Positions 6,787 to 35,400 of a DNA stretch of 64,000 nt are shown here, piece by piece; positions within the stretch are counted from its first letter, which is position 1; each line of letters begins with the position of its first letter. Both the position numbers and the translations under genes were made by a program. Source of the DNA: Pararoseomonas baculiformis (GTDB lineage Bacteria > Pseudomonadota > Alphaproteobacteria > Acetobacterales > Acetobacteraceae); contig NZ_JAGIZB010000003.1 of the NCBI RefSeq assembly GCF_017813395.1, forward strand, positions 186,001-250,000. Reading direction: 5' to 3'. Below the pieces are notes generated by a model. It saw only the letters and a list, made by a program, of their open reading frames with translations. It was not told the origin of the DNA and searched no databases.

Positions 6787-6790
6787 GGGG

Positions 6791-7684: not shown

Positions 7685-7686
7685 GC

Positions 7687-10391: not shown

Positions 10392-10397
10392 CCAGAC

Positions 10398-10427
10398 GCT
10401 CCCTCAATACTTATCGTTAAAGGGAGC
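10398..10427. promoter_or_regulatory. Inverted repeat with AT-rich core upstream of livG operon
   Basis: GCTCCCT (10398-10404) and AGGGAGC (10421-10427) form a perfect 7-bp inverted repeat around a 16-nt AT-rich core, an exception in this GC-rich sequence. It begins 7 bp upstream of the livG start on the minus strand. It could be a repressor operator, a hairpin in the leader, or part of the promoter. The core contains TATC/TAAC strings that could act as a -10 element. Nothing here identifies the regulator. Confidence 0.4.
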
Positions 10428-10486
10428 ATGGGGGCCCTACATCGCCCCGGCAAGGGCCTTCTGGGCGGGCGGCAGGCTGCGTGGTC

Positions 10487-11215: not shown

Positions 11216-11342
11216 TTCGGTTTCCGCTTGATCTGCACAAGGCGCGCTGAGATTGGTAGAAGGGTGCGCGGGCACCACCGGCCTTCTACGGCCAGGGCCG
11301 GTGCCCGGGAAGCCAGCAGCCATTTCCTGACGGACCCCAGCC

Positions 11343-11630
11343 ATGACCTTATGCCTCGTCCTGCACGACCTGCCCGAGGGCGGCGCGGAGGCCATGGAGG
11401 CCTCCATCTGGGAGCTGAGCGAAAGCCACTGCATGGTGAAGGGCGCGATGCTGGTGGATACCAGCGTGTCGCCGAAATACCTGCTTTCCCATATCCGGGG
11501 CGCGCTCTCGCGGGCGGGCCTGGAGGGGAAGCTCCTGGTCACGCATGTAACGACGGACGTGCACATGTCCGGGCTCGACCGTGACATTGAAGGCTGGATC
11601 CAGGGCAGCCTGAAGGCCAATGCCGATTAG
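11343..11630 (+). CDS. Small conserved-looking hypothetical protein (95 aa)
   Basis: No function recognised. A compact soluble protein with no signal peptide or membrane segment. It has a mixed alpha/beta look: a hydrophobic first strand (MTLCLVLHDLP), an acidic middle, and a C-terminal amphipathic helix (GLDRDIEGWIQGSLKA). Coding is supported by the absence of competing frames, low-complexity-free composition and a compact fit: it is divergent from the GDPD gene (127-bp gap) and ends 9 bp from the convergent nucleoside hydrolase. The ribosome site is weak. Could be a small regulatory or binding protein. Confidence 0.6.
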   Translation: MTLCLVLHDLPEGGAEAMEASIWELSESHCMVKGAMLVDTSVSPKYLLSHIRGALSRAGLEGKLLVTHVTTDVHMSGLDRDIEGWIQGSLKANAD

Positions 11631-11639
11631 CGGTGGCCC

Positions 11640-15127: not shown

Positions 15128-15134
15128 GGCGCCC

Positions 15135-16271
15135 ATGACCGAGAGCACCTGGAAGAACGCCCATGCCGCCGCCGTCCTGCAGGGCGCGGCGGCGGTGGTC
15201 CTGCTGGGGATCGGGGCATGGCAGGGTCTGTCGGCCCTATCGAGCCCGCAGGGATGGCAGCGCCTCGAATCCAACCTGACGCCGAGTGCCTTCCTCTCGG
15301 GCCGGCTGACCGGCGCCGTGAACCAGGTGCTGGCCCACCAGTTGCCAGCCGACCCGTTGCTGCGGGGCGCGGGGGCCGCCTTCCGCTACAATCTTTTCGG
15401 ATCGGGTGGCCCGCAGGTGCGGGTGGGATGCGGCGAGACGCTGTTCCTGACCGAGGAACTGCGCCCCTGGCCCGGCGCGGAGCAGGCCATGGCGGAACGC
15501 GCCGACGGCGTCCTCCGGCTGCGCGAGGCCCTCGGCGCACGGGGCATCCAGCTCTCCGTGGCGGTGGTGCCGGACAAGGCGCGGGTCCAGGCGGCGGCGC
15601 TCTGCGGGGCGCCACGCTCCTCGCAATCCGCGGACCGGTACGACACCTTTGTCCAGCTGCTCCAGGGCCGCGGCGTGCAGCCGATCAGCCTCCTGCCGCC
15701 GCTCTCCGAGCAGGAGGCCCGTGGCAGCGCCTATTACCGGACCGACACCCACTGGAACCAGCAGGGTGCCCGCGCTGCAGCCGTCGCCATCGCGCGCTCG
15801 CTCGAAGCGGCGCCACTCAGCCGTGAAGACAGCTTCCGCACCACGGCCGCAGCGGAGCAGACCGAGGGCCCAGGCGACCTGTTGAGGCTGACGAGCCTTG
15901 ACCAGGTGCCCGCGCCGCTGCGCCCACGCCCCGACCATCAGCACCTCGAGCGGACAGAAGCCGCCGGGGAGCAGGGCGGCGGACTTCTCGACGAGGCCCG
16001 TGCCCCGGAGGTTGCGCTGATCGGGTCCTCCTACTCGGTGAACGCAAATTTCCACGGCGCCCTCCAGGAGGCGTTGCGCAGTGCTGTCCTGAATGCGGCG
16101 ACCGCTGGCGGCGGCTTCTCGGGCAGCGCGATCAGCTATTTCGCCGGGGAGTCCTTCCGCCAGTCAGCACCGCGTCTGGTCATCTGGGAAATTCCTGAGC
16201 GGGTGGTCGCCCAACCGATCACCGAGGCGGAGCGCCGTTTCATCCTGAGCCCTGGAGTGGAGGGTCGGTGA
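15135..16271 (+). CDS. AlgJ/AlgX-like SGNH O-acetyltransferase
   Basis: Periplasmic or membrane-anchored acetyltransferase expected to place acetyl groups supplied by the MBOAT partner onto a polysaccharide. About 378 residues from ATG 15135. One N-terminal hydrophobic segment (AAAVVLLGIGAWQGLSAL) can act as a signal anchor. The SGNH-like catalytic elements of AlgJ/AlgX are present: DTHW with Asp204 and His206, and GSSYS at 297-301 carrying the nucleophile. The conserved VVPDKARV strand precedes them. It begins 7 nt after the MBOAT stop, so the two are co-transcribed. A second, diverged copy of this family lies at 19939-20934 on the other strand. Confidence 0.85.
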   Translation: MTESTWKNAHAAAVLQGAAAVVLLGIGAWQGLSALSSPQGWQRLESNLTPSAFLSGRLTGAVNQVLAHQLPADPLLRGAGAAFRYNLFGSGGPQVRVGCGETLFLTEELRPWPGAEQAMAERADGVLRLREALGARGIQLSVAVVPDKARVQAAALCGAPRSSQSADRYDTFVQLLQGRGVQPISLLPPLSEQEARGSAYYRTDTHWNQQGARAAAVAIARSLEAAPLSREDSFRTTAAAEQTEGPGDLLRLTSLDQVPAPLRPRPDHQHLERTEAAGEQGGGLLDEARAPEVALIGSSYSVNANFHGALQEALRSAVLNAATAGGGFSGSAISYFAGESFRQSAPRLVIWEIPERVVAQPITEAERRFILSPGVEGR

Positions 16272-16399
16272 GCGACATGGCCCCTCCATACGGCGACAGG
16301 ATGCCCGCCCCTGCGCTCCGGAACAGGTGGACGCCGCGGCTCATTCGCTGGTCTGCTGGGCTGGCTTCTCCTATATCTGAGACATTGAAGGAGCATGGC

Positions 16400-19102: not shown

Positions 19103-19131
19103 AGAGCCCGGTCGGCTTACCGGAACGCAAA

Positions 19132-19171
19132 GGGGCTTCCGCAGCAGTACCAAGACTGCCGCGGAAGCCCC
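19132..19171. terminator. Hairpin between convergent acetylation arms, first of two
   Basis: Stem of 11 bp (GGGGCTTCCGC with GCGGAAGCCCC), one A/C mismatch, then 5 bp more, around a 6-nt loop. It starts 30 nt after the TPR gene stop. Placed between convergent genes, it probably ends transcription of the plus-strand arm and blocks read-through. The T-run is poor, as usual in this GC-rich genome. Confidence 0.7.
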
Positions 19172-19193
19172 CTTACCTTCACCGCCGTCCGTA

Positions 19194-19222
19194 GAACCTC
19201 CCCCTTATGCAGGGGGAGGTTC
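19194..19222. terminator. Perfect 12-bp hairpin, second of two between convergent arms
   Basis: GAACCTCCCCCT (19194-19205) pairs completely with AGGGGGAGGTTC (19211-19222) across a 5-nt loop. It lies 6 bp beyond the stop of the AlgF-like gene and probably terminates the minus-strand arm. The two hairpins together form a bidirectional termination zone. Confidence 0.7.
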
Positions 19223-19228
19223 AGTCGG

Positions 19229-19939
19229 TCAGCGACGCCAGGGTGTCGTGGTATCGCGCGTGACGAAGGACGTCAGCGCCTGTCCATCCGGGCGCATCAG
19301 CCAGATGCTGTACATGCCACCCGCCTCGGTGTTCTCCAGCGGAAAATTCGGCGCTGACGCCCCCTCCCCGCACCCGGCGAGGAGCTGTGCCGTCACCGGA
19401 TTGACGCTGCGGCTCTTGGCCGTGCCGAATGCCACCTGGTCGAACACGGAAGGCCCCGGTGGCGCGATCTGGAGCGAAGCCGTGCCGCAGTTAGGCGCCA
19501 GATTGTAGAAGCTGAGCTTCGCGCGGGCGCGGTTGAAGTCCGCCAGGTCCACAACGGGGGTGCCGGTGATGGATCCGTCCGGCGCACGGTGCAGCAGGAC
19601 CGTGTTGAAGCTGCCGGAGGCCGCGCGCAGGGTGATGCGCGCGTTGCGCCCCTGCGCACTGGCCTCGATCGTCAGTTCACGGGTTCCCACCTTCTCGGCC
19701 ACGCTGTAGGGCGTAACTCGATCCTGCGTGCCCGTTCCGAGGCGCAGCGGCGGCATGAAGCCGGGGCGGACCGCCACCTCCTCGCCGAGACCGTTCACGA
19801 AGCGCACATAGGCCGAGTCTGGCGGCGGCTGAGGGTCATAGACCTGCGCCTGGCTCGGAGCGTTCTGGGCGGCAGCGGGCATCGCGGTGATCGCGACGCC
19901 CGCCAGAAGCAGCCCGAGGATCGGAAGCCGGCGCCGCAT
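19229..19939 (-). CDS. AlgF-like alginate O-acetyltransferase accessory protein
   Basis: Periplasmic accessory protein resembling AlgF/WssG, which works with AlgI and AlgJ in polymer acetylation. About 236 residues from ATG 19939. A Sec signal peptide is clear (LPILGLLLAGVAITAMPAAAQ). The mature part is beta-rich with the AlgF-like order YVRFVNGLGEEVAVRPG, an early strand pair, and a later VDLADFNRARAKLSFYNL segment. Its start codon shares one base with the stop of the upstream AlgJ/AlgX-like gene (TGATG), so the pair is translationally coupled. A longer frame to 20005 would destroy the signal peptide position and is rejected. Assignment rests on pattern and context; sequence identity in this family is usually low. 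Confidence 0.75.
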   Translation of the reverse strand: MRRRLPILGLLLAGVAITAMPAAAQNAPSQAQVYDPQPPPDSAYVRFVNGLGEEVAVRPGFMPPLRLGTGTQDRVTPYSVAEKVGTRELTIEASAQGRNARITLRAASGSFNTVLLHRAPDGSITGTPVVDLADFNRARAKLSFYNLAPNCGTASLQIAPPGPSVFDQVAFGTAKSRSVNPVTAQLLAGCGEGASAPNFPLENTEAGGMYSIWLMRPDGQALTSFVTRDTTTPWRR

Positions 19940-20934
19940 CACGCGCCGACGGCCCGGCGGAGATCGGCCAGGTACTGGTCCACCGAGATGGCGTTCTGAC
20001 CCCAACCGCTGCTGGTCGGCAGGCCGGGCAGGTCGAATTCCAGCTGGACCCAGGTGATCAGCTTCGGGCGCTGCCGCTTGAAGCCCTCGCTCGCCAGATA
20101 GCTCAGGAGGATGTTGTAGGGACCGAAGTTGTTCGGCTTCCAGAAGAGCGAAACCGGCCTGTTCATCTGGTTGGAGAGCGAGGCGTGGAAGCCGTAGAGC
20201 GGCTGCGAGTAGCTGTTGCCGATCACCGCGACATCGGCGGAGTCATCAGCCACCAGCGCGGCCGCGCCGGTCGCCGCGACCGGCTCGCGGATCTGGTAGC
20301 GTTCCGGCCCGTAAGCCTGGCGCTGCGCCTCGGGCAGGTTGCGCACGAGGTCGCCGCGCCCCTGTGTCTTCACCATGGCCGGCTGCAGCTGCAGGCCGGG
20401 CCGGCTGCTGGCGGGCAGCACATTGGCCTGGGCAACAGCCTTGGCGGTTTCGGCGGCGGCCAGTTCGGCGCCCAGCGGTGTCCAGTGGGTGTCCGTCTTG
20501 AAGAAGAGCCCCTCGGCGTCGTTGGCGCGCGCGCGGAAGGCTGCGTCCAGATCGGGCACGATGGCGCCGGCCTTGCGCATTTCGGCCACGGCGGTTGCGT
20601 AGCGGCGGTCGATGTCGGCGGAGATCCGCGTGTTGTTCGGCAGGTACTGGCGGTAGGTCCGCGCCTTCGACGGCGCGAGCACATAGGCGGTCGCGATTCC
20701 CGCAGAGCGGAGGATCCCGGCGGTCTGTCCCATGACGTTCAGCGTCTGGGTCAGTTCCCGGGTATTGATCTGGTCGGTCTTGTCCCAGATCGGGAAGAGC
20801 CAGCCCTCCTTGCCGATCACCGCGGCGCCGGCGGTCTGGGCTCGCAGCCTGCCCGGAATGGCGGCGAGGCCGGCCGCACCCAAGAGGGCGCGGCGCGACA
20901 CCGGCCAAGCGTTCGAACCATTGGATCCGCTCAT
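19939..20934 (-). CDS. Second AlgJ/AlgX-like SGNH acetyltransferase
   Basis: 331-residue exported protein. The N-terminus carries a twin-arginine-type signal (SRRALLGAAGLAAIPG), unlike the signal-anchor of the first copy. The AlgX/AlgJ catalytic elements are intact: DTHW with Asp148 and His150, and GNSYS at residues 238-242. The VLAPSKARTYRQYLP strand matches the family. It lacks the C-terminal carbohydrate-binding module of AlgX, so it is AlgJ-sized. It is transcribed with the AlgF-like gene, and the probable promoter lies in the 280-bp gap upstream. Presence of two copies suggests division of labour (for example transfer from MBOAT versus final transfer to the polymer) or two acceptors. Confidence 0.85.
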   Translation of the reverse strand: MSGSNGSNAWPVSRRALLGAAGLAAIPGRLRAQTAGAAVIGKEGWLFPIWDKTDQINTRELTQTLNVMGQTAGILRSAGIATAYVLAPSKARTYRQYLPNNTRISADIDRRYATAVAEMRKAGAIVPDLDAAFRARANDAEGLFFKTDTHWTPLGAELAAAETAKAVAQANVLPASSRPGLQLQPAMVKTQGRGDLVRNLPEAQRQAYGPERYQIREPVAATGAAALVADDSADVAVIGNSYSQPLYGFHASLSNQMNRPVSLFWKPNNFGPYNILLSYLASEGFKRQRPKLITWVQLEFDLPGLPTSSGWGQNAISVDQYLADLRRAVGA

Positions 20935-21106
20935 GCGGAATGCTCCTTGGGAAGCGTCAGCGACGGGAAAGGGAACGGGGAGACGATTCGCCGAGGATCC
21001 GCGGCAACTTCGGTAAGCCCTGCGGCAGGGCCATGCGGCCCAGCATCATGGCCAACGCAACCGCGAGTATATGCCACCCCGACCCATGCCCCACCGAGAG
21101 GCTCGC

Positions 21107-21136
21107 TCTATACAAAATGGATGGACCGCCACTCAA
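21107..21136 (-). promoter_or_regulatory. Candidate promoter for AlgJ/AlgX-AlgF operon
   Basis: On the minus strand, TTGAGT (21136-21131) and TATAGA (21112-21107) are separated by 18 nt. This gives a leader of about 165 nt before the ATG at 20934. It lies in a relatively AT-rich patch inside the 280-bp gap after the GDSL hydrolase gene. No other element was recognised in this gap. Confidence 0.45.
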
Positions 21137-21214
21137 CCGGCTTCAAACGAATCCGTGATCGAAGGCGTCAATGCGCGCGCAGGTGATGCCGGAAAACATC
21201 CCATGGGCTGTGCA

Positions 21215-22054
21215 TCATGGACCCATCAGGGCGTTGATGGTCGGGGCAAGGGCCGCGGAGAGCCGTGCATATCCTTCGGCGGTCAGGTGAAGGCGATCAT
21301 GGGCGATCTGTTCGGAAAGGCGCCCCTGCTGATCGAGCAAGGCGTTCCCGACATCGACATAGAAGACCCAGCGCTGATCGGCGCAGCGGGAGACGAGTTC
21401 GTTCACCCGCTGATTGACGCGCCGCGCCGGGTCACTCGCATCCGCGCCCCGTGGCAGGATACCGATGATCAGCACCCTGGTGGCCGGGGAGCGCTGGCGA
21501 ATGAGGCGCACGGTTTCCGCGATGCCGAGCGCGGTGTTCTCCGGCGGCGCGGAATAGGCCGCGTTGTTGGTGCCGATCAGCAGCACGGCGAGCTTGGGCT
21601 TCAGCGAGGCCGGCCACTGGCCGCCCTGGTTCAGCCGCCACAGCAGCCCCTGTGTGAAATCGCCCGCAACCCCGAAATTCACGCCGCCGCGGGATCCGTA
21701 ATACTGCTCCCACACCGGCAGGTGCCAGACATGGGTGATCGAGTCCCCAAAGAAGATCATCCGCGCATAGGACATGTCGCGGCTGGCGACGCGGCTCAGC
21801 TCGGCGACGCGCGCGCGCCAGTAGGGATCCTCCAGCAATTCGGGCTTGGCCTCCCGCGGCAAGGGCTCGCGGGCCGGGATAGCCGGGCAGGCCTGCTCTC
21901 CCTGCGCCAGGGCTGGGGTCACGGCCGTGACGAGAAGCCCGCCGACGCAGAGCTTCAGAAGCGCCGAGCGCCAGCGGCGCCGATGCGCCTGCGGCCTTGG
22001 GGAACGCTGATTGGGCAGCAGGCGCGGCGGAAAAGGCATGAGGATCCCGGACAT
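21215..22054 (-). CDS. SGNH/GDSL-type hydrolase (exported acetylhydrolase-like)
   Basis: 279-residue esterase of the SGNH family, similar in motif layout to platelet-activating-factor acetylhydrolase-like proteins. Block I is FFGDSIT (Ser within 103-107), block II FGVAGDFTQG, block III GTNN at 161-164, block V DRLH with Asp253 and His256, so the catalytic set is complete. A basic N-terminus followed by LLKLCVGGLLVTAVTPALAQ is a signal peptide or lipoprotein-like leader, placing it outside the cytoplasm. An in-frame ATG at 22039 could also be the start. In this neighbourhood it may remove or transfer acetyl groups on the same polymer. Confidence 0.85.
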   Translation of the reverse strand: MSGILMPFPPRLLPNQRSPRPQAHRRRWRSALLKLCVGGLLVTAVTPALAQGEQACPAIPAREPLPREAKPELLEDPYWRARVAELSRVASRDMSYARMIFFGDSITHVWHLPVWEQYYGSRGGVNFGVAGDFTQGLLWRLNQGGQWPASLKPKLAVLLIGTNNAAYSAPPENTALGIAETVRLIRQRSPATRVLIIGILPRGADASDPARRVNQRVNELVSRCADQRWVFYVDVGNALLDQQGRLSEQIAHDRLHLTAEGYARLSAALAPTINALMGP

Positions 22055-22125: not shown

Positions 22126-23391
22126 TCAGGCCGCTTGGCGGAAGGGCTGCTCCTCCGGCGCATAGATACCCCGCAGGGCATCGAGGAATTCCTCCCGCCC
22201 GATCACGTCGCGCAGGCTGGAGGACAGCCGCTCGTGGTTCTCGGGCACCGCGCCCTCGAGCATCGCGCGGGTGAGGTCGGGAACGGAACCGGCGCGGAAA
22301 TGCAGCCCGTCCACGCCGTCAAGCACCTTCTCGGCCATGCCGCCGATCCCCGACACCATCAGCGGCGTGCCCGCGCGACGGGCCTCCTGGATGACAACCG
22401 GGGAGTTCTCCCACCAGATCGAGGGCATGATCACCCAGCCGACCGAAGCCATCAGCGCGACCACATCGGCCGAGTCGTAGCGCCCGGCGAAGACGATCCG
22501 GTCGCCGGACGCCGTGATCGGGCGCTCCAGGCTCGGGAAGAAACGGAGCGTTTCCTCCTGCGTCGCGCCGTAGATCATCAGGCCCAGCTGCGGATCATCG
22601 GCCAGGGCGCCCGCAAAGGCGGGAATGAGAATGTCCAGCCCCTTGAACTCCGTGGGCTGGCCGAAGAAGGCGAAGCGCCCGGCCGTCCGCGCGCTGTCGC
22701 GCGAGCGGCGGGGCAGCGCCAGCAGGTCGTCGCCCAGATAGTTCTCCAGCACCGTCGCCTTGTCCGGGTTCAGCCCCCATGCGCGGTAGCGCTCGGCGAT
22801 GAAGTGGCTGGGATACACATAATGATCGAAGGCACGCAGGCCGGAGATCATCATCGCCTTGCGCAGCCGCAGCCGCTCGAGCGTCTGGTCCGGGAAGCAG
22901 GTCAGGCAGCGCTGCGCCGTCTCCTTGCGGCAGAGCTCGCGGGAGCGCGTGCGGATCATCTGGCCGTGGTGGCTGCAGATGGCCAGCATCTCATGCAGGG
23001 TCACCACCATGCGCGCATCCGGCCGCGCCTCGGCCAGCTCGGCGACAAGGTCGAGCCCGACGCGCCAGTAATGATGGAAATGGTAGACGTCGCAGTTCAG
23101 CCCGGCGAGCAGCTTCACCAGCGCGCGGCGCTGCTCGGCGCTGCGCCACCACAGCCGGTCATCCTCCATGCCGCCGACAGCGTAGAGGTACTCGTTCTCG
23201 CCATAGCGGGCGACCGCCTCGCCACGATCCGCGGGCGACTGCCCGCCCGGCAGCTCGATGGCGGCGACGAAGCTCGCATCCCACCCATCGCCGGCCATGG
23301 TCTGGAACTGCCGGTAGGCCGCCGTCTCGCCGCCGCCCTTCGAGAAATCGGGATGGGCATGCGAGATCAAGCAAACGGACGATTTCTTCAT
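22126..23391 (-). CDS. Glycosyltransferase family 4 protein
   Basis: 421-residue GT-B fold retaining glycosyltransferase. The N-terminal domain opens with VCLISHAHPDFSKGGGETAAYR (glycine-rich acceptor-side loop) and contains YHFHHYWRVGLDLV. The C-terminal nucleotide-sugar domain shows RFAFFGQPTEFKGLDILI, VFAGRYDSADVVALMAS and the PSIWWENSPVVIQEARRAG motif, a GT4 E-x7-E variant. A Cys-rich insert near residue 155 (CSHHGQ..CRKETAQRCLTC) is unusual and could bind zinc. Its ATG overlaps the stop of the 497-residue unknown protein by 4 nt, so the two are coupled. Probably makes a surface glycan; sugar and acceptor unknown. Confidence 0.88.
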   Translation of the reverse strand: MKKSSVCLISHAHPDFSKGGGETAAYRQFQTMAGDGWDASFVAAIELPGGQSPADRGEAVARYGENEYLYAVGGMEDDRLWWRSAEQRRALVKLLAGLNCDVYHFHHYWRVGLDLVAELAEARPDARMVVTLHEMLAICSHHGQMIRTRSRELCRKETAQRCLTCFPDQTLERLRLRKAMMISGLRAFDHYVYPSHFIAERYRAWGLNPDKATVLENYLGDDLLALPRRSRDSARTAGRFAFFGQPTEFKGLDILIPAFAGALADDPQLGLMIYGATQEETLRFFPSLERPITASGDRIVFAGRYDSADVVALMASVGWVIMPSIWWENSPVVIQEARRAGTPLMVSGIGGMAEKVLDGVDGLHFRAGSVPDLTRAMLEGAVPENHERLSSSLRDVIGREEFLDALRGIYAPEEQPFRQAA

Positions 23392-24881
23392 CGCGGCGTC
23401 CCCGAAACCGGCACCATTTCCCAGAGCCCCTGCAGATGCTCGGCCACCAGCCCGCCCACGGCATCGGGCCGCTGGGTGGGCATGGGCAGGGCGGAGGGAT
23501 CCGTGCCTCCCATCAGCGCGACCACGCGACGAAGCGTGTTCTCCATCTCACCCACTCCAGCCATGCCATGCAGCGCGACGATCATCGGCAGCCGGTCGGA
23601 AGGAAGGGCATTGGCCGTCAGCCGGGCGGGATTGCCCTCGATCGCGGCATCGACGAGCGATGCCGTGTCGATCGGGGCCACCGGGCCGGGATCGCGCGCG
23701 GCGGCTTCTAGCGCGGCGCGGGCACCGCCTTCCACCGAAACCTCCATGTGCCCCCGTCGCATCAGCCCCGCCGCGGCGCGGGAGGCCATGTCTCCGCTCA
23801 GGATTACGCGACCGAAGCGGGCCTCAAGCTGCGGGGCGATCAGGGAGATTACCCTGCTCGCGTAGTCGTCGTTGATGTCAAAGAGAAGCGCCGTTCCGCC
23901 GGGCACGGCAGGCGTGGCGGCAAGTGCCATCGCGGCCAGCTGGGCACGCAGGGTCTCCCCCCGGTCCGACAGCGCCTGGCGTACCCAGCCATGCAGCGCA
24001 CCCTGGTCGGCGGCGGGAAGATCCACCCCGGAAAGGGAAAGGGCATCCAGGAATTCGGGCAGGGTACCGGGCGCCGCCTCCGCCCGGAACCACCAGCTCT
24101 GCTCGCCCCTGCGGATCTGGATCACGGCCTCGACCACCGCATCGGCGGGTGCGTCCACCACGCCGACCAGGGCGAACCCGGCCTCCAACGGCGCGCGGCG
24201 CTCGCCGATCAGCGGCAGCACATCCAGATTTCCGCCCCGGCGCCGCACCAGGGCGCAGCCCATGGTAGCCGCCCTTTCGCCGGGTTCATGGGGCAGGTTG
24301 AAGCCGCCCGAGACGACGATCTCCCCGCCGGGCAGCCGCAGGGCCGAGACACGCCGGAACTCCATGAACCAGTCGGCGCGCCCGCTCATGCGCGGCAGGC
24401 GGTCCAGCCAGGCCCGGAAGATCCCGGGCGGGCCACCTTCGGCCTCCAGCGTCTTGACCCGTTCCGGATTTCTCGCGGATCCATGAAGTAGCTGGTAGCT
24501 CGCCCCCCATTCCCGGTTGAGCGTCACCGCCTCGACATCAACGGGCAGGTCGTAGGCGAGGAGGTCGATCGCGACCTCCTGTCCGGCCAGCATCTCGCCC
24601 GAGGCGCCGATGATCAGCAGCCGCCCCGCCGCATGCCGCGGGATGTCGTGGACGAGACTGAAGCCGGAGACGGCCATTCCCTCCGGCGCCTCCACATCCC
24701 GCCGGGGATGGATGTCGAGGAGCAGGGTTTCAACCGGCTCTCCGGGGCTTCCCTCAACGCGCAGGTCCAGCACTTCCCCGGCACGATGCCGCACCCAGCC
24801 GAACACCGCGCCCTGGTCGGGCGTGATATCGCCGGCGCAGTCCAGGCCGGCCTGCAGCGCCTGTCCGAACTCGAAATACAT
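23388..24881 (-). CDS. Unrecognised 497-aa protein with two DQGA-x-x-GWVR repeats
   Basis: No family recognised with confidence. Soluble, no signal peptide, rich in predicted beta-strands in the first 330 residues and alpha/beta afterwards. A short motif is repeated: DQGAVFGWVR near residue 22 and DQGALHGWVR near residue 295, each followed by a GE-(V/T)-L strand, suggesting two related domains. The C-terminal third (ALLFDINDDYASRVISLIAPQLEARFG onward) looks like a different domain. Start ATG 24881 was chosen because the frame upstream lies opposite a real plus-strand gene. It is translationally coupled to the GT4 gene at 22126-23391, so it may present acceptor or regulate that enzyme. Confidence 0.75.
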   Translation of the reverse strand: MYFEFGQALQAGLDCAGDITPDQGAVFGWVRHRAGEVLDLRVEGSPGEPVETLLLDIHPRRDVEAPEGMAVSGFSLVHDIPRHAAGRLLIIGASGEMLAGQEVAIDLLAYDLPVDVEAVTLNREWGASYQLLHGSARNPERVKTLEAEGGPPGIFRAWLDRLPRMSGRADWFMEFRRVSALRLPGGEIVVSGGFNLPHEPGERAATMGCALVRRRGGNLDVLPLIGERRAPLEAGFALVGVVDAPADAVVEAVIQIRRGEQSWWFRAEAAPGTLPEFLDALSLSGVDLPAADQGALHGWVRQALSDRGETLRAQLAAMALAATPAVPGGTALLFDINDDYASRVISLIAPQLEARFGRVILSGDMASRAAAGLMRRGHMEVSVEGGARAALEAAARDPGPVAPIDTASLVDAAIEGNPARLTANALPSDRLPMIVALHGMAGVGEMENTLRRVVALMGGTDPSALPMPTQRPDAVGGLVAEHLQGLWEMVPVSGTPR

Positions 24882-25079
24882 CCGTCGCCCAGGTCCCGTG
24901 GAAGCGTGATTAGAAGGGCTGGGTTGCCCCGAAGCAAGCTTGGCCGCAACCCCCGGATGCGGCGCCCGGAACGCCACGCCTTGACCACGGGGCCCCTGCC
25001 AACCGATCCTTGGGCGAGCCCCGGGGCGCCCCCGACCATCCTTCCGAACCGACGCCCAGCGGACCAGAACGCCAGACCG

Positions 25080-27407
25080 ATGCGCTGCCTCGTCATCTCT
25101 CCGACGCCCACGCATCCGCAGGATGCGGGCAACCGCCAGCGCATCCACGCCCTGCTCGCCGCCCTGCGCGGCTTCGGCCACCAAGTTGAATTCGCCTTCA
25201 TCCAGCGTGAGGCCGTGGGGCAGGACGCCATGGAGGCAATGCGCGCCGCCTGGGATGCGCTGCACCTTATTCCGTATGACCGCACGGCAGAGAGCCCGAG
25301 CCTCGGCGAGACTTATGCCCTGGACGACTGGTTCCCGCCCTCCCTCGAGGAGGCTCTCGGCACCCTCGCCGCCGCCTCCGCCTACGACCTCGTGCTGGTC
25401 GAGTATGTCTTTCTCAGCCGCGCGCTCGAGCTCTTCCCGGCCGGCACGCTGAAGGTGCTGGACACCCATGACGTCTTCGCGGACCGCCATCTGCGGCTGC
25501 AGGCGCTCGGGCTGCCGGTCGGATTTTTTCACACGACGGTCACGGAAGAGGCGCGCGGCCTCGACCGCGCTGACCTCGTCCTCGCCATCCAGGATGACGA
25601 GCGGCAGCTTTTCGAAGAGATGACCGAGGCGCCCGTCGCCACCCTCGGCTTCATGCCGGCGGCCGATGAGCTGGAGCAGGCTCCCCATTCGGCGCTGCGC
25701 ATCGGCTATTTCGGCAGCGGAAACCCGCTGAACGGGCACGCCCTCACCCGCTTCCTCGACGCGCTGGAGCCAGCAGGGCTGCCGGCGCTTGGGGCGGAGA
25801 TGCGGGTCGCGGGGGGAGCCTCCCGCTATGCCGGGCCCGCCGCGCCCGGGCTGGTCCCGCTGGGCGGAGTGGGGAAGCCGGCAGATTTCTATGCGGGCAT
25901 CGACCTGGTGGTGAACCCGCATGAGGGCGGGACGGGGCTGAAGATCAAAACGGTGGAAGCCCTGGCCTACGGGCTCCCGGTCATCGGGACGGCCGAGGCC
26001 TTCCGCGGACTGGGTGCCCGGGCCGGCTTCCATGCCGCGCCGGATGCCGCCGCCACCGCCGCGCTGGCCCGGCGCTGGGCGCTGGAGCCCCGCTTCCGCC
26101 AGGAGGTCGCCCGCGAAAGTGCCGCGCTCGCCGCGCGCTATGCGCGGGAGGTGCGGCGGCAGCTCGCACCCTTTCGCTCCCGCGCGGCGCTGGAGGCGCT
26201 GGTGCGGCGCCCGCGCGCCCTTCTGGTCACCGACATCCCGTTCTGGCGGGAAAGCCTGGGCAACCAGGCGCGCATCGCCGCCATGCTGCGTGCCGCCCGG
26301 GCGGAGATGGACCTGGACACCCTCTTCCTCGGGCCGCTGGAGGCCGAGGACGCCGATGCGGCCTCCGCCGTGCTGGGGCGCCGCGGGCGTCTTCTCGCTT
26401 CCCCGGGCAGCGGCGGGGATGACGTGCAGGCACCGCCACCGGCCGGCCTGCGCCTCACCCCTTTCGAGCGGCGCTCCTTCGACGCCGCGCATTTCACGGC
26501 GCTGGAAGGCGTGCTGGCCGCGGGGGGGCATGAGATCGTCATCCTCGAATACATCCGCCTCTCCTATCTGCGGCATGCCTCCCCCGCCCCGCCGATCCGC
26601 GTGCTGGACACCCATGACGTGATGTCCCTCCGCACCCGCAACTTCGAGCATTTCGGGCGGGAGCACTTCCTGCGCCTCTCCACCCTGGAGGAACTGGGCA
26701 TCATGGACGGGTTCGAGCAGGTGCTCGCCATCCAGGAGGCCGAGCATGCCCTGCTGCGCGGCGCGCTGCCCGGGCGCTCGCTGCTGCTCCCGCATACCAT
26801 CCCGGACCTGCCCTGCGCGGAGGCGCGCAAGGTGGTGCGGCGGATCGGGTTCCTCGGGGGCGACAGCCCCATGAACCGGGACGGCATCCGCTGGTTCATC
26901 GAGCAGGTCTGGCCGGCCATCGCCGATCTCGGTGCCGAGCTGCACGTCGCCGGGCGCGTGTGCGACGCGCTCACCACGCTGCGCGCACCCGGCCTGCGGC
27001 TGCATGGCGAGGTGGAGAGCCCGGCCGACTTCCTCGAGGACACCGATATCGGAATCAACCCCGTGTTCTATGGGGGTGGTCTGAAGATCAAGACGGTGGA
27101 GTATCTCTGCCGCGGGCTTCCCTCGGTGCTGACCGAGGAGGGCGCCTTCGGCCTCGGCGACGGGGAGGGAACCGCCTACCTCGTCGCGCGGTCCCGGGGT
27201 GAGTACGTGGCCCATCTGCGCGCCCTGATCCGGGACCCCCTGCGCCGCCGCCGCCTGGGCGAAGGCGCATTCCGCTTCGGCCGGGCGCGGTTCGGAACGC
27301 ATGCTGCGCGCGCGGCGTGCCGCACCCTTGCCAGCCTCGCCATGGCCTTCCAGGAGACCACGCCGGGCCTGCATGCCGGGCACGGGCCCGCCGCGCGCGC
27401 GGCCTGA
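25080..27407 (+). CDS. Tandem double GT4 glycosyltransferase (internal duplication)
   Basis: 775 residues made of two full GT-B glycosyltransferase copies in one chain. Copy 1 starts at residue 1 (MRCLVISPTPTHPQDAGN), copy 2 near residue 376 (ALLVTDIPFWRESLGN). Both contain LDTHDV (about residues 127 and 509), a following LxLAIQ strand, a GYFGSGNPLN/GFLGGDSPMN strand start, and GLKIKTVE (about 286 and 667); spacing between copies is about 382 residues. A 20-bp DNA word is identical at 25455-25474 and 26601-26620. Both copies keep the GLKIKTVEAL glutamate, so both may be active, perhaps adding two sugars in order. It is divergent from the 497-residue gene (198 bp) and followed after 36 nt by a small unknown gene. 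Confidence 0.85.
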   Translation: MRCLVISPTPTHPQDAGNRQRIHALLAALRGFGHQVEFAFIQREAVGQDAMEAMRAAWDALHLIPYDRTAESPSLGETYALDDWFPPSLEEALGTLAAASAYDLVLVEYVFLSRALELFPAGTLKVLDTHDVFADRHLRLQALGLPVGFFHTTVTEEARGLDRADLVLAIQDDERQLFEEMTEAPVATLGFMPAADELEQAPHSALRIGYFGSGNPLNGHALTRFLDALEPAGLPALGAEMRVAGGASRYAGPAAPGLVPLGGVGKPADFYAGIDLVVNPHEGGTGLKIKTVEALAYGLPVIGTAEAFRGLGARAGFHAAPDAAATAALARRWALEPRFRQEVARESAALAARYAREVRRQLAPFRSRAALEALVRRPRALLVTDIPFWRESLGNQARIAAMLRAARAEMDLDTLFLGPLEAEDADAASAVLGRRGRLLASPGSGGDDVQAPPPAGLRLTPFERRSFDAAHFTALEGVLAAGGHEIVILEYIRLSYLRHASPAPPIRVLDTHDVMSLRTRNFEHFGREHFLRLSTLEELGIMDGFEQVLAIQEAEHALLRGALPGRSLLLPHTIPDLPCAEARKVVRRIGFLGGDSPMNRDGIRWFIEQVWPAIADLGAELHVAGRVCDALTTLRAPGLRLHGEVESPADFLEDTDIGINPVFYGGGLKIKTVEYLCRGLPSVLTEEGAFGLGDGEGTAYLVARSRGEYVAHLRALIRDPLRRRRLGEGAFRFGRARFGTHAARAACRTLASLAMAFQETTPGLHAGHGPAARAA

Positions 27408-27443
27408 TCCTTCCCAAGAGCCGCCCAGACCACCGGAGCCGAC

Positions 27444-28187
27444 ATGCCCATCGAAATCCCCAGCGACGGCCTGGACCTGCTCGCGATGCAGGAGGCCGGC
27501 GACGCGGTGGAGGCCGCCGCCGCACGGGTGCGCGCCGACGCGATTCGTGGGCGGCTGGCCCCTTCCCTTTCCGCCCTGCCCCCTCCGCTCCGCCACGCCA
27601 TGGAGGCCATGATCGAGGAGGTCGCGCGTGCCTCGGCGGAGGCTGAGGCAGCGCGGCAGGCGGCGCTGGAGATGCGCCGCGAACGCGGGGAGTGGCTTCA
27701 GATCGACCCGCTGCGCCACATTCCGGAGGATCGCGGCGCCCAGCCGCCGGCAGCGCCCTCCGCCATCACCATCCATGCGGCGGATCCGGACTTCGTCGGC
27801 TTCGGCTGGCACAGCGCCGAGGGACGCGGGGACCAGAGCTGGCGCTGGAGCGGCGCGACCCCCGCGGCATCCGTGGTGGTGCCCGATCTGGGGCCGGGCA
27901 CGTTGAGGGTCGAGCTCGACCTTGAGTTCCCCTTCCGCCAGGCGATCACCCCGGGCGCGCTGACCGTGCTGGCGAATGGAGAGCCGCTGGAACTCGATGT
28001 GCGCCTGCTGGAGCCGCACCGGGGAGTCTTCTCCGCCCTTTGGGCCGGCTACGGGGTGCCGGGCGCAAATCTGGGCCTTGTCCTGCTCGGCCCGCGCGCG
28101 ACGGACCCGACCGGACGGGACCCGCGCGAGCTCGGCCTCGCCTTCCGCAGCGTGTCGGCCCGGCGGGTCGCCAGCAGCGCGGGCTGA
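27444..28187 (+). CDS. Unrecognised 247-aa protein, helical N-terminus plus beta-sandwich-like domain
   Basis: No family recognised. Residues 1-80 are helical and charged (possible coiled coil, AMIEEVARASAEAEAARQAALEMRRER). Residues about 105-245 look like a beta-sandwich with aromatic-rich strands (GFGWHSAEGRGDQSWRWSG), the pattern often seen in carbohydrate-binding or accessory modules attached to glycosyltransferases. The start ATG 27444 follows the tandem GT4 gene by 36 nt on the same strand, so it is probably co-expressed. It ends 6 bp from a convergent gene. A related-looking C-terminal module occurs in the GT at 43893-46313. Confidence 0.7.
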   Translation: MPIEIPSDGLDLLAMQEAGDAVEAAAARVRADAIRGRLAPSLSALPPPLRHAMEAMIEEVARASAEAEAARQAALEMRRERGEWLQIDPLRHIPEDRGAQPPAAPSAITIHAADPDFVGFGWHSAEGRGDQSWRWSGATPAASVVVPDLGPGTLRVELDLEFPFRQAITPGALTVLANGEPLELDVRLLEPHRGVFSALWAGYGVPGANLGLVLLGPRATDPTGRDPRELGLAFRSVSARRVASSAG

Positions 28188-28193
28188 GGCGGC

Positions 28194-29324
28194 TCAGGCC
28201 GGGGCGGGGCTTGCCCGGCCGGCGCGGGCGATCCCGACCTGGAAGTCGGTCGAGAGCTCGTTGAAGCCCCAGAAATTGCGGAGCGATGTGCGGAGGGCAT
28301 TGGGCGGGCGGCGGAACCGCTCCCCGTCCGGACGGGTCACGGGGACCAACGGCGCCAGGACGCGGCGCCAGAAATCCGCGTCGGCCCAGGCATCCACCAC
28401 ACTCAGATGCTGGCCTGGCACGGCCTCCACGCGGCGCGCGGGGATGTCGAAGGGCGATTCATGCAGGAAGCGGGCTTCCTGCCCGAAATAGCGCGCCTCG
28501 ATCAGCACGGAGGAGCTGACGCCCACCACCCGCCGGATGTCCTCCGACGCCATGAGCGCATAGACATTCTCATAGGTCAGCTGCATCCGCCGCAGCGAGA
28601 GCCCCGCCGAGAGCGCGCCGAAATCGGAATTGGCATAGGGGTGCGGCTTGAACACCACCGCGCCGTCGCCGGTGGCGGCATTCAGCTCCGCAGTGAAATC
28701 GGACAGGTTCACGATCCGCCCGCCCCGCACGAGGGACCGGTCGATCCGCGTCTGGCCGATCAGCAGCGTCTCGCCATTGATCCGGAGCTCGGGCCGGAAC
28801 TTGAGCGCGGACGCCGCGAGCAGCCCGGCCGCGCCGATGAAGGCGCTTTCCTCCGCATGGTCCGCCAGCATCTCGTCGAACACGGCCGCGTCGTTCGTCT
28901 GCACGGCGAAGAACACGTCCTCAAGGAAGCGGACGGGATGGATGCCGAAATCGATGAAGGGAATGCCAAGAAGGCTGAGTATCCGCTTCATGGATTCGGC
29001 CAGCTCGAAGCCGATCACCACGGCCCCGCCGAATGCGCGCTCCATCTCCGCCAGCACCCCGTCCGGCGCGAAGGCGGAATCGAAGATCCGTGCCCAGCCG
29101 CGCCAGCTCTTCTCGGCGTCCCAGAGCTCATAGAGGCGCTCCGTATCGATGCCCCTGCCCCAGGCCACGACCTCCACCGGCAATCCCGTGGCCGCGCGCG
29201 CCTGAAGGCGGACGAGGCGGTGGAACCAGAGGATGTTCTCGGTCTGCGCGGGCCGGAAGCCCGCCTCCCCGGGGCGGAGCACATCCCCGGTGAACACGAT
29301 CCGTGCGATCCCAGATGTCGCCAT
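28194..29324 (-). CDS. Capsule/Kdo-transferase-like protein with KPHP motif
   Basis: 376 residues, no signal peptide. The segment VVFKPHPYANSDF, followed about 30 residues later by RVVGVSSSVLIEARYFG, is the pattern of capsule polysaccharide proteins such as KpsS/KpsC and related Kdo- or sialyl-transferase-like enzymes (GT-B folds using CMP-sugars). The first half is less typical. It follows the GT4 gene at 29333-30394 by 8 nt and galE before that, so it belongs to a galE-GT4-KPHP operon on the minus strand. I infer a role in adding an acidic sugar to a surface glycan; the exact family is uncertain. Confidence 0.65.
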   Translation of the reverse strand: MATSGIARIVFTGDVLRPGEAGFRPAQTENILWFHRLVRLQARAATGLPVEVVAWGRGIDTERLYELWDAEKSWRGWARIFDSAFAPDGVLAEMERAFGGAVVIGFELAESMKRILSLLGIPFIDFGIHPVRFLEDVFFAVQTNDAAVFDEMLADHAEESAFIGAAGLLAASALKFRPELRINGETLLIGQTRIDRSLVRGGRIVNLSDFTAELNAATGDGAVVFKPHPYANSDFGALSAGLSLRRMQLTYENVYALMASEDIRRVVGVSSSVLIEARYFGQEARFLHESPFDIPARRVEAVPGQHLSVVDAWADADFWRRVLAPLVPVTRPDGERFRRPPNALRTSLRNFWGFNELSTDFQVGIARAGRASPAPA

Positions 29325-29332
29325 CGCCCCCC

Positions 29333-30394
29333 CTAGCCCAGCACCGGCTGCACAGGGACGGATTGCGCGAGGAAGCCGAGGAAGGCCGTTGCCGCGCGCT
29401 CCAGCGCCGGGAGGCCGTGGTTCAGCTCCGCATGCCGCCGCGCCCGGCGCCCGATGGCGCGGCGTAGCGGCTCCTCCCGCAGCAGGAGCTCAACGGCGTG
29501 GCGCAGCGTGTCGCGGCCCACCATGAAGCCATGCTGCCCCTCGGCGAAGCCGCCATGCACGGTGTCGCGATAAACGATCACGGGCAGGCCGCAGGCCATG
29601 GCCTCCACCACCGCGCGTGGGAGCCCGTCCATTTTCGACGTGTGGACCATCACGCGGCAGCGGCGGAGCAAGGCGATCACCTCCTCCTGCGGCAGGCGCC
29701 CGGTCATGGTGAGGTTCCGGGTATCCGCGACCGCCGCCTTCACCTCCGGCCGCGGCGTTCCGCCACCCACGAGCGCGACGCGCCAGGAATCGGTGAAGGG
29801 GACGACGTCCTCCTGGTTCTTCCGCTTGTCGTAGAGCCCGCCAACATTGACGATGTCATGGAGTGGCGCCTGCGCCGGCTTGGACGGCCGGCTTGCCTCC
29901 AGATCCACGTATTTCGGCATTACGAAGGCCCGGCCCGCCTCAACGAAGCGCGGGAAGTGCCGAGCCAGCTGCTCCTGGTACTCGCCGAACACGAAATCCG
30001 CCCGGTCCAGCAAGGGATCGGTGACGGAACCGCCCACGACGAAGCCGATCCGCGGCGGCGCGGCGGCGCCGGGCAGCAGCGCATCATGCAGGTCCTGGTT
30101 TACCCGGTAGCTCAGGCCTTTCAGCAGGATAGCGTCCGGGGCGAAAGCGCGCACCTCCTCCACCAGCTTCGCCGAGACCTGGCGATGGGGGATTTCCTTC
30201 GGATTGTCCGAAGGGGCGAAGCAGACGGGCACGGCCCCGTCCAGGAAGCGCTCCCGCTCCACCCCGCCGCCCGGATGCATCCGGAACACCGCGATCTCCG
30301 CCCCGCCCTCGGCGAGGAGGCGCATGAAGTGCATGTCGCGCAGCGCCCCCGCCATGGAGCGGTCGGCATGGCTCATCAGCAGCGCGACACGCAT
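29333..30394 (-). CDS. Glycosyltransferase family 4 protein
   Basis: 353-residue GT-B glycosyltransferase. It begins MRVALLMSHADRSMAGALRDMHFMRLL and continues with ILLKGLSYRVNQDLHD in the acceptor domain. The donor half has IVNVGGLYDKRKNQEDVV (nucleotide-binding strand with RKN), LTMTGRLPQEEVIALLRRC and HTSKMDGLPRAVVEAMACGLPVI, which carries the GT4 ExxxxxxxE pattern. It lies 12 nt after the galE stop and 8 nt before the KPHP protein gene, all in one operon. A UDP-galactose donor would fit the GalE neighbour, but that is only inference. Confidence 0.87.
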   Translation of the reverse strand: MRVALLMSHADRSMAGALRDMHFMRLLAEGGAEIAVFRMHPGGGVERERFLDGAVPVCFAPSDNPKEIPHRQVSAKLVEEVRAFAPDAILLKGLSYRVNQDLHDALLPGAAAPPRIGFVVGGSVTDPLLDRADFVFGEYQEQLARHFPRFVEAGRAFVMPKYVDLEASRPSKPAQAPLHDIVNVGGLYDKRKNQEDVVPFTDSWRVALVGGGTPRPEVKAAVADTRNLTMTGRLPQEEVIALLRRCRVMVHTSKMDGLPRAVVEAMACGLPVIVYRDTVHGGFAEGQHGFMVGRDTLRHAVELLLREEPLRRAIGRRARRHAELNHGLPALERAATAFLGFLAQSVPVQPVLG

Positions 30395-31649: not shown

Positions 31650-32807
31650 ATGGCACGGACCACGCGGAAACGGCGCCTGCTGGTCCTCTTCCCCGGAGAG
31701 CGTTTCGGCGGCGCCGAGGCTCATAGCCTGCGCATCGCCGATGCGGCCCATGCGGCCGGGATGGCGGTCACCCTTGCGGCCGGGGCGGCGCTGCACCCGG
31801 CCCTGGAGGGGTCCGGGCGGGTGCTCCTCGACCATGCGCTCGCCTGGCGAAGGGGCCTGCCGGCCAGGGCCCGGCAGGCGCAGGCCGAGGCGGCCAGGGC
31901 TGCCATCGCCGAGGCCGCGCCCGAGTTGGCCCTGCTGCCCCTGCCCTGGCCCGACCAGGCCGGAGGGATGTTCGAGGCGCTGGCCGAGGCGCGCATTCCC
32001 ACTCTCGTCGTCTCGCATCTCGTCCCGCATGGGGAGGAGCTACCGGGCGGGCTGGATGAGGAAGCGCTGGTCGCGGCAAAGGTCATCGCCGGGGAATGGG
32101 TGGCGGTGTCCACCCCCACTGCCAGGCGTCTGGAAGCGGTGCTCGGCCTCTCCCCTGGGCGCGTGGCCACCGTGGCCAACGGCGTCGATCCGCCACCCGT
32201 CCTGGAACCGCGCCAGTGCCGCGCCAGGTTGCGGGAGGCGCTGGGCCTGCCGGGCGATGCGGCGATCGCCCTCTTCCTGGGGCGGCTGGACGCGGCAAAG
32301 GGCGCGGACCGGCTCCCTGGCCTCGCGGAAGCCTTCACGCGCCGAACGGGCGGCGTCCTCGTCGCCGCGGGAACCGGTTCGTTGGAGGGGGAACTGGCGA
32401 CGCTCGCCGGGCCGCCCCAACCGTTGCGCCTGATCGGCCATCACCCCGCGCCGGCCGAGCTCATCGCGGGCGCGGATCTTCTGGTCATGCCGTCCCGGCT
32501 CGAAGGGGCTCCCCTCGCCTTCCTTGAGGCGGCGATGCAGGGCCTCCCCGTGGTGGCCAGCCCCGAGGCGTTGGAGGCGCTCGGCCCGCGCGCCCCGGAA
32601 CTGGCCGCCCTGGCCGATGCCGAGGATGTGGGAGAGATGGCCGATGCGATGGCCGCATGCCTCGACCCGCTCGGCCAGGCGCCGGCGCGCGCCGCGTCCG
32701 CCTGGCGCCTGGCCTCCGCCTGGGACGGCGCCGCGATGGCCGGTGCCTATCTGGCTCGCCTCCGACGCCTCGCGGCCCCGGCGCTTGGCGGTCCGGGAAG
32801 CGGGTGA
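31650..32807 (+). CDS. Glycosyltransferase family 4 protein
   Basis: About 385 residues. N-terminal start LLVLFPGERFGGAEAHSLRIADAA contains the GGAE acceptor-side loop. The donor domain begins VATVANGVDPPPVL and continues ALFLGRLDAAKGADRLPGL and VMPSRLEGAPLAFLEAAMQGLPVVAS, a complete GT4 E-x7-E motif. ATG 31650 is preceded by AAAGGA but close (3 nt), so ATG 31638 or TTG 31614 remain possible. The next gene, a GT2-GT4 fusion, starts 28 nt after its stop, giving a plus-strand three-gene unit with the 835-residue protein. The first half is unusually Ala/Leu-rich. Confidence 0.85.
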   Translation: MARTTRKRRLLVLFPGERFGGAEAHSLRIADAAHAAGMAVTLAAGAALHPALEGSGRVLLDHALAWRRGLPARARQAQAEAARAAIAEAAPELALLPLPWPDQAGGMFEALAEARIPTLVVSHLVPHGEELPGGLDEEALVAAKVIAGEWVAVSTPTARRLEAVLGLSPGRVATVANGVDPPPVLEPRQCRARLREALGLPGDAAIALFLGRLDAAKGADRLPGLAEAFTRRTGGVLVAAGTGSLEGELATLAGPPQPLRLIGHHPAPAELIAGADLLVMPSRLEGAPLAFLEAAMQGLPVVASPEALEALGPRAPELAALADAEDVGEMADAMAACLDPLGQAPARAASAWRLASAWDGAAMAGAYLARLRRLAAPALGGPGSG

Positions 32808-32835
32808 GATAAGGCCGCACGGACCGGGCTTGGGG

Positions 32836-35400
32836 ATGTCAGAGGCAACGGATCATCCGACGGATAGGGGCGAGGCCGCGCCTGGAGGCGGGCCGGAGGT
32901 GGCCGTGATCATCCCGGCCTGGCGGCAGCCCGCCCTGCTGGCGGAGGCCATCCTGTCCGTCCTGGCGCAGCGCGGGAGCCGCGAGGTGGCGGCCGTGGTG
33001 GTGGATGATGGCTGCCCGATGCCGGAGACCCGGGAGGTGGCGCTGGCCCTTGCCCGGGCCCATCCAGGCCGCGTGTTTCTGCTCCGCCAGGCGAATGCGG
33101 GCCTCTCCGCGGCGCGCAATGCCGGAATCGACTTTGCACTGCGTGCCTGGCCGGGCTGCCGGGCCCTGTTCATGCTCGATGCGGACAACCGGCTCGGCCC
33201 AAGGCTGATCGACCGAGCCGCAGCACTCCTGGAGGAATCCGGGCCGGGAACGGGCTGGGTCTATCCCGATTTCGACTTCTTCGGCATTGCCGAACATGCC
33301 TCGGCGGCGGGGGAACATTCGCGCTTCCTCCACTTCCTCGAAAACACCAGCGACGCCGGAAGCCTCGTCTCACGTGCCGTTTTCGAGGCGGGTCTCCGCT
33401 TCGACGAGACCATGCGCCAGGGCTTCGAGGACTGGGATTTCTGGTTGCGGGTTGCGGCGGCCGGCTTCCGCGGGCGCCACCTGCCCATGGCGGGCTTTCG
33501 CTACCGGCGCCGCGCCGGCGGGATGCGCCTGGATGCGGAGCGCCGCCGCACCGCCATCCTGGCCGGCATGCGCGGGCGGCTGCGGCGGGAACTGGACCCG
33601 CGACGCCTCCTCGCTTTGGAGGCGGCGGAGCTTCCCCGCTTCCTGCTGTTCCGCTCGGGATACGGGATGGCGGAGTCCGTGCTGGACCCGCTCCGCCCCG
33701 CCCGTGCGCCGGTTACCCGCGATGCGGCCCGGCGCGCCGTGGTAGAGGCCAGCCGCCATCCGCAGGCCGTACATGCACCGCCCTTCCTGCTGTTCGCCTC
33801 CGGCGAGGCGCTTAAGGCGCTGGCGGCCGGCAAGCTCCTGCACAACACGCTCTGGCAGGCCGAGATCCTGCTCCGCCACGCCGACGCTGTTGGGGTGAGC
33901 CTCTGGACGGAGCAGCCCGGAAGGCTGCTGCTGGAGCGCGCCGAGGGACCGCCGCCGGCAGAGGCGGCGCTGCTGCTCTTCCGCACCGAGGCCTTCGGCG
34001 AAGCCGCCGCGCTTGGCGCGGGCTTCGAGACGATGCTTCGCCGAGCCGCCCGGCTGGACGTGACCCTGCCGATCTCCCTCCCCGCAGCGCCGCCACCTGT
34101 GCTGGATGAGGCGGCAGCGGAATTCGCCGCTTTCTCCGGATGCTTCGCCACTCGCCACCCCGAGCATGGTGAGTGGCGCGGCGACTGGCGCCGCCCCCGC
34201 GCCCACGCCCACCAGGGCTATGCCGAGCTGATCGGCGCCGGTGCCGTGCTGCCCTGGCTCTCTCCGGCGGAGGGGCGCGACATCGCCATCGCCGTGCCGA
34301 TCTTCGAGATGGGAGGGGTGGAGCGGGTGGTGACCAACTATGCCCGGATCCTGCGCGAGCGCGGCTGGCGCCCGCATCTGTTCGTCACCGGCAGCGATTC
34401 CGCCTGGCTTCCGCCCGATGCGCTGGCCGCCTTCGAGACGGTGCAGCTGCCCCAGCGGGGCGGGATCGAGGGGACTGACACCTCGCGGACCCATTCCGGC
34501 GCCGCCCTGCCCGGCGTGACGAATTCACGCGATGCCCTTGGCCAGTTCGCGCCGATGCACGCCATGCTGGCCACCCATTCCCATGGAGCCCACGCCCTGG
34601 CCGACGTACTGCGCGGGCTTGGCGCCATCACCATCGCCGGCCTGCATGTGATCGAGCGGGAACTGGCCGGCGCCCCGCTCGGAAACCCTCATGCGCTGCT
34701 GGCGCATGAGGATTCCTATGATGCCATCGCTGTCGTCTCCGACGGGCTGCGGCGCTGGTGCCTCGCCCAGGGTGTATCGGCCTCCAAGCTGATCCTCGTC
34801 CCGAACGGTCCGGGCCAGGCCGCCGCTCCGGAAGCCGCCGCTTCCATCATGGCAGAGCGCGAGACACGGCAGGGACCGCTCCGCGCCCTGTTTATTGGCC
34901 GGCTCGACCCGCAGAAGGGGATCGACCGGCTGCGGGACATCGTCGCCCTGACCCCCGGCATCGAGTGGCGCGCCGCGGGGCGCGCGGTGCTGGACCGGGC
35001 CCCCGAGCCGATTCCCGGCCTCGTGGTGGAACCGCCGGCCGGCCCTCGTGAGCTCGATGGGCTGCTGGGCTGGGCGGATGTGCTCGTCCTGCCCTCCCGC
35101 TTCGAGGGCTCGCCCCTGACCATCCCGGAGGCGCAGCGCATGGGCTGCGTGCCGATTGTCACCCGGACAGGCGCCGTCGGGGAGATGATCGAGGACGGGG
35201 TGGACGGCTTCCTGATATCCGGCCGCCATGATCCGGAGATCGTCTCGGCCTTCGCCGAGCGCCTGGGCGCCCTTCAGGCGGACCGGGCCACCCTGCGCGC
35301 CGCCTCCGCCTCGGCCTTCGCCCGCGCCGCCGCCCTTCCTGGCTGGGGCCAGCGCATGGCCCCTCTTCTCGACCGCATCGACAAGGCACCCCATCCGTGA
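32836..35400 (+). CDS. GT2-GT4 fusion glycosyltransferase
   Basis: 854 residues combining an inverting GT-A domain and a retaining GT-B domain. The GT2 part (about residues 20-270) has VAVIIPAWRQP, VVVDDG, the DxD-type metal site MLDADN and the EDWDFWLRV acceptor motif. A linker of about 220 residues of uncertain fold follows. The GT4 part (about 490-850) starts IAIAVPIFEMGGVERVVTNYARIL and has LFIGRLDPQKGIDRL and PSRFEGSPLTIPEAQRMG. ATG 32836 begins just before the first GT2 strand. The stop overlaps the GTG start of the 835-residue gene by 4 nt. Such fusions usually add two successive sugars; these are not identified here. Confidence 0.88.
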   Translation: MSEATDHPTDRGEAAPGGGPEVAVIIPAWRQPALLAEAILSVLAQRGSREVAAVVVDDGCPMPETREVALALARAHPGRVFLLRQANAGLSAARNAGIDFALRAWPGCRALFMLDADNRLGPRLIDRAAALLEESGPGTGWVYPDFDFFGIAEHASAAGEHSRFLHFLENTSDAGSLVSRAVFEAGLRFDETMRQGFEDWDFWLRVAAAGFRGRHLPMAGFRYRRRAGGMRLDAERRRTAILAGMRGRLRRELDPRRLLALEAAELPRFLLFRSGYGMAESVLDPLRPARAPVTRDAARRAVVEASRHPQAVHAPPFLLFASGEALKALAAGKLLHNTLWQAEILLRHADAVGVSLWTEQPGRLLLERAEGPPPAEAALLLFRTEAFGEAAALGAGFETMLRRAARLDVTLPISLPAAPPPVLDEAAAEFAAFSGCFATRHPEHGEWRGDWRRPRAHAHQGYAELIGAGAVLPWLSPAEGRDIAIAVPIFEMGGVERVVTNYARILRERGWRPHLFVTGSDSAWLPPDALAAFETVQLPQRGGIEGTDTSRTHSGAALPGVTNSRDALGQFAPMHAMLATHSHGAHALADVLRGLGAITIAGLHVIERELAGAPLGNPHALLAHEDSYDAIAVVSDGLRRWCLAQGVSASKLILVPNGPGQAAAPEAAASIMAERETRQGPLRALFIGRLDPQKGIDRLRDIVALTPGIEWRAAGRAVLDRAPEPIPGLVVEPPAGPRELDGLLGWADVLVLPSRFEGSPLTIPEAQRMGCVPIVTRTGAVGEMIEDGVDGFLISGRHDPEIVSAFAERLGALQADRATLRAASASAFARAAALPGWGQRMAPLLDRIDKAPHP

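Follow-up and report, generated by a model that had tools for sequence, protein, structure and literature searches.

A bimodular GT4 glycosyltransferase of Acetobacteraceae, best explained as a fusion of two old paralogs, travels with a predicted GT140 Kdo transferase

Both glycosyltransferase (GT) modules of WbdA, the enzyme of E. coli O9a and K. pneumoniae O3, belong to family GT4, and WbdA makes polymannose together with WbdD and an ABC exporter. It is one of several dual-module GTs already known, the others being WbbM, KpsC and KrkA (PMC11231755, PMC10148158, PMC12887879), and it carries one module per linkage type (PMC11231755). KpsC, a dual retaining beta-Kdo transferase, likewise has two GT-B modules per chain (PMC10148158), both of them Kdo transferases of GT107. 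The retaining beta-Kdo transferase on which GT140 was founded is KrkA of E. coli K13, which joins a GT140 to a ribosyltransferase and uses Asp193, in a QxxxD motif, as nucleophile and Glu102 as general base (PMC12887879).

Here we analyzed a gene of Pararoseomonas baculiformis, located at 25080..27407 (+) of a 64,000-nucleotide stretch of its genome (hereafter the window), that places two GT modules in one polypeptide as WbdA and KpsC do. Unlike the GT107 modules of KpsC, its modules match GT4 folds and Pfam PF13692; unlike those of WbdA, they lack the first Glu of the EX7E motif, and neither WbdA partner was seen here, no ABC2_membrane match lying on the window's contig or in the cluster genes that were run against Pfam. 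The locus resembles KrkA in having a GT140 homologue and in that two GT activities would cooperate on a Kdo glycan, but a gene of its own encodes the GT140 here, partnered by a bimodular GT4 in place of a ribosyltransferase. Our search of the literature on dual GT4 or Roseomonas exopolysaccharide enzymes returned nothing closer than WbdA and KrkA, and nowhere in the literature searched did we meet the fusion of these two GT4 subfamilies and its tie to GT140.

The gene encodes a 775-residue protein (starting MRCLVISPTPTHP) in which two full GT4-like GT-B modules lie in one chain. The N module (25080..26207, +; residues 1-376) has a GT-B fold and belongs to an N-type GT4 subfamily with the signature SPTPxHP..AGNR.RI (GTGLKIKTVEAL), and the C module (26208..27404, +; residues 377-775), also a GT-B fold, belongs to a C-type GT4 subfamily with the signature TDxxFW...G...RI (GGGLKIKTVEYL). 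An earlier note, written from the letters of the window, had described two complete GT4-like domains of about 382 residues each; the two modules stand, and their sizes are corrected to 376 and 399 residues. Aligning the halves, as that note had proposed, gave 33% identity globally (120/363), a BLASTP E value of 2e-28 and a local score ~35 SD above shuffles, which is well above background, and the motif order it had read (LDTHDV, LAIQ, GLKIKTVE) is indeed the same in both halves. Profile against profile, the halves matched at 100% probability over 345 columns, and each matched PF13692 (38.7 and 52.8 bits vs a gathering score of 27). The sole NCBIfam match of both halves was TIGR03087 (stp1, a PEP-CTERM/XrtA system glycosyltransferase), over the donor-domain region, and stp1 membership was rejected at 19 and 38.2 bits vs a cut-off of 316.65. 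A phmmer search of the 775-residue protein against sequences of solved structures found none at E up to 1, and a scan of genome contigs returned close relatives and distant GTs only. A 1,543-aa antisense ORF (23388-28019, -) covers the whole tandem gene; because codon composition favors the + strand from 25080, we treated it as a shadow frame there, and its final ~497 codons look like a genuine gene at 23388-24881.

Structure prediction placed both modules among GT4-like enzymes. The AlphaFold model of the 775-residue protein (mean pLDDT 77.6; low-confidence loops at 132-152 and 514-555) has secondary structure that fits two GT-B modules, and in this predicted structure both modules fold like solved GT4 enzymes, such that the C module (377-759) matched sucrose-phosphate synthase, TarM, MshA, BshA and PimA (Z ~24-25) and the N module (1-373) matched PimA (Z=22.3). 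The note's view that neither half has lost its key donor-site residues is right for the DxHD His (H130 in the N module, H512 in the C module), the Lys at -3 (Lys290, Lys671) and the second Glu of EX7E (E293, E674), all invariant in both modules across 11 aligned orthologs, and is wrong for the first Glu of EX7E, where the modules have Thr285 and Gly666 and which is likewise absent from aligned N-type and C-type relatives. In GnaT, the first EX7E Glu is the more critical one and its mutation nearly abolishes activity (PMC12856342), yet the GT4 enzyme WsaF naturally lacks it and is active (PMC3898925), so the absence of a full EX7E does not on its own exclude GT4. As judged from sequence, catalytic activity of both modules is plausible and, since both are complete, under purifying selection and carry module-specific conserved residues, so is a two-activity enzyme.

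We found both modules in one intact frame in at least 21 Acetobacteraceae genomes, that of the window included, and these 21 genomes represent four genera of this one family. An additional fused copy, whose annotation reads just ‘glycosyltransferase’, sits on a 389-kb Pseudoroseomonas cervicalis replicon, and one more is split by an assembly gap (genome G728). The tandem gene of genome G692 (locus L169, 8974-11513) is broken into several frames, which are possibly assembly errors since the GT140 gene there is split too. Across orthologs, both halves evolve under purifying selection (dN/dS 0.13-0.43), each module has its own invariant residues (11 aligned orthologs), and the distance matrices of the two modules are correlated (Mantel r=0.93), indicating co-divergence of the halves; the fused gene is inherited as a unit.

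Two genes downstream of the tandem gene and convergent with it lies 28194..29324 (-), for whose protein Pfam gave no hit at its usual threshold. Its structural model matches KrkA (9yfx/9yfy; Z ~34), as does its profile (E=3.8e-56), and the catalytic residues of KrkA that were mutagenized (roles from PMC12887879) are conserved in it. Across 9 homologues, the residues Q191/D195 (QxxxD), E107, R132, H228 and N30 do not vary, so that KrkA homology, the QxxxD nucleophile, the Glu general base, and the Arg and HP motifs are all present, and we predict a GT140 (KrkA-like) retaining beta-Kdo transferase from this sequence and modelled structure. Between the two genes, 27444..28187 (+) encodes a 247-aa protein with no Pfam match, whose association with both the tandem gene and standalone C-type genes is conserved; from Roseomonas to Palleronia, proteins of this kind were seen encoded next to GT140 and C-type GT4 genes. 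Further neighbors are a GT4 family glycosyltransferase at 29333..30394 (-), conserved in genus g1 and in g16; another at 22126..23391 (-), also kept in g1 and g16; and the divergent gene at 23388..24881 (-), encoding a 497-aa protein with no Pfam match that recurs in g16 loci at 28-29% identity. Elsewhere in the cluster, 32524-35400 (+) is another fused enzyme, with a GT2 domain followed by a GT4 domain in one chain, and 35397-37904 (+) encodes a DUF6212 protein that includes a long stretch rich in Ala and Pro; in genus g95, DUF6212 genes were also observed 3' of the tandem gene. Beside the GT cluster, 13682-22054 holds a likely alginate-type O-acetylation set (MBOAT, two AlgX-like proteins, a sub-threshold AlgF-like match and a GDSL protein).

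Extending from the locus to other genomes, the C family is tied genomically to GT140. Within a 397-genome sample of the family, GT140 was present in 24/24 genomes with a C-type module vs 10/373 of the others (Fisher p=7e-31, uncorrected for relatedness), and in the genus of the window it was present in 8/8 C-type carriers vs 0/7 non-carriers (p=1.6e-4). Standalone C-type genes were found in G269 (locus L099), in G773 (L167), which has a fused gene besides, and on a Palleronia plasmid (L181), each of them beside GT140 and 27444-like genes. The Palleronia locus (4058-12090 of a 125-kb plasmid) combines C-type GT4, GT140 and 27444-like genes with kdsA, kdsB (manno-octulosonate cytidylyltransferase) and kpsF. 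The GT140/27444-like pair of genus g95 is not adjacent to the tandem gene: it lies ~16 kb away or, in some assemblies, on another contig.

How the two modules came to share a chain can be asked at the DNA and the protein level. Where the earlier note placed 20 bp of identical DNA, the sequence GTGCTGGACACCCATGACGT does occur exactly, at 25455..25474 (+) in the N module and at 26601..26620 (+) in the C module, and both copies code for the VLDTHDV motif with the conserved His, a subfamily signature that occurs in standalone relatives too. With VLDTHD shared at the protein level, all six codons would coincide by chance in ~1.5% of cases; over all 120 identical N/C residues, 58 codons are identical vs 62.1 expected from the codon usage of the window's predicted genes. 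Because identical codons do not exceed this expectation, the match carries no duplication signal: it is explained by the protein motif plus codon bias, and these statistics rule it out as the trace of a recent duplication.

At the protein level, the search for single-domain relatives that the note had suggested recovered both standalone N-type and standalone C-type genes, and trees placed the N and C modules in different clades with strong support. The N modules cluster with standalone GTs and with N-type modules that have other fusion partners, and the C modules form a separate clade with standalone members of its own. An internal tandem duplication of one GT4 gene, with both copies kept and standalone relatives arising by later loss of a half, would account for halves that are homologous over their full length with equal motif order, and also for the C profile scoring the window's own N module (145.6 bits) about as high as the best outside match (141.5 bits) in a class-wide sample. 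Against this, forcing N and C into one clade was 64.5 lnL units worse and was rejected under the model used (AU test p=0.00055), so the halves are not each other's closest relatives, and there is no excess DNA identity between them. The N module is moreover ~45% identical to standalone or otherwise-fused GTs vs 33% to its own C module, and the N family includes several standalone and otherwise-fused lineages from more than one alphaproteobacterial family, which would require repeated loss of the C half. We thus consider internal duplication very improbable, and what the note took for two retained copies are better read as two modules kept under purifying selection than as duplicates of this gene. 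Fusion of two old GT4 paralogs is the best-supported origin on sequence evidence, since the N and C clades are separate, a single clade is rejected and standalone C-types exist. One tree (92/85) makes the standalone C-types sister to the tandem C modules; in a second (51/79) their placement outside the tandem C clade is not clear, and some of them could be later fission products. Other N-type combinations include species of the window's genus that have no tandem gene and in which the N-type module is preceded by another GT4 module, one that matches weakly (L080-L082), and proteins with an N-type GT4 followed by a C-terminal ~350-aa region with no Pfam family that ends in a DxGWxxIW-like motif (L088, L089-L093, L097, L098, L104); that region was rejected as a decayed C module, having no profile similarity to it (hhalign probability 5.8, 0.2).

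To summarize function, we think it probable that the gene is a fused two-paralog GT4 whose modules add two consecutive sugars and that GT140 adds Kdo to that glycan. C-type and N-type paralogs of separate, older subfamilies would have been fused into one enzyme, each module being a putative full GT-B with its own nucleotide-sugar site; most likely, a lipid-linked intermediate would receive from them two sugars in succession that differ in identity or linkage, and the neighboring GT140 may add beta-Kdo to the resulting glycan or its repeat. Module activity, sequential transfer and a Kdo-containing product are what we infer here, and because the fused gene travels with a predicted Kdo transferase, the association suggests that the bimodular GT4 and GT140 together build a Kdo-containing surface sugar. 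Should only one module be catalytic and the other serve as an acceptor-binding or scaffold domain, the missing first EX7E Glu of both modules would be less puzzling, as would the N-type proteins whose ~350-aa second region has no detectable GT family; we regard this as unlikely, given that the His, Lys and second Glu are invariant in both modules (11 orthologs), that dN/dS is similar in the two, and that each module has standalone relatives with the same motifs. Less probable still is a processive dual-GT polymerase that makes the repeat by itself like WbdA. Dual GT modules are typical of ABC-transporter-dependent polymerases (PMC11231755), and KrkA likewise makes a repeat by combining two GT activities (PMC12887879), but the GT140 partner suggests at least one further sugar in the unit, and an autonomous polymerase is made less likely by the absence of ABC2_membrane and Poly_export matches from the window's contig (matches lay on other contigs); in the cluster genes covered by Pfam scans, neither an exporter nor a polymerase turned up. 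Beyond the favored two-sugar reading, we offer more tentatively, at somewhat less than even confidence, that C-type GT4, GT140 and 27444-like genes constitute an undescribed Kdo-glycan module across Alphaproteobacteria onto which Acetobacteraceae may have grafted an N-type GT4, giving a new Kdo trisaccharide or repeat.

To our knowledge, Kdo outside LPS and enteric capsules has been little studied. The locus connects the GT140 Kdo transferases, defined only recently, with an uncharacterized bimodular GT4 in environmental bacteria, and the tempting reading of the gene as a tandem duplication is corrected to a fusion of distinct GT subfamilies, which provides a testable example of the modular assembly of glycan enzymes.
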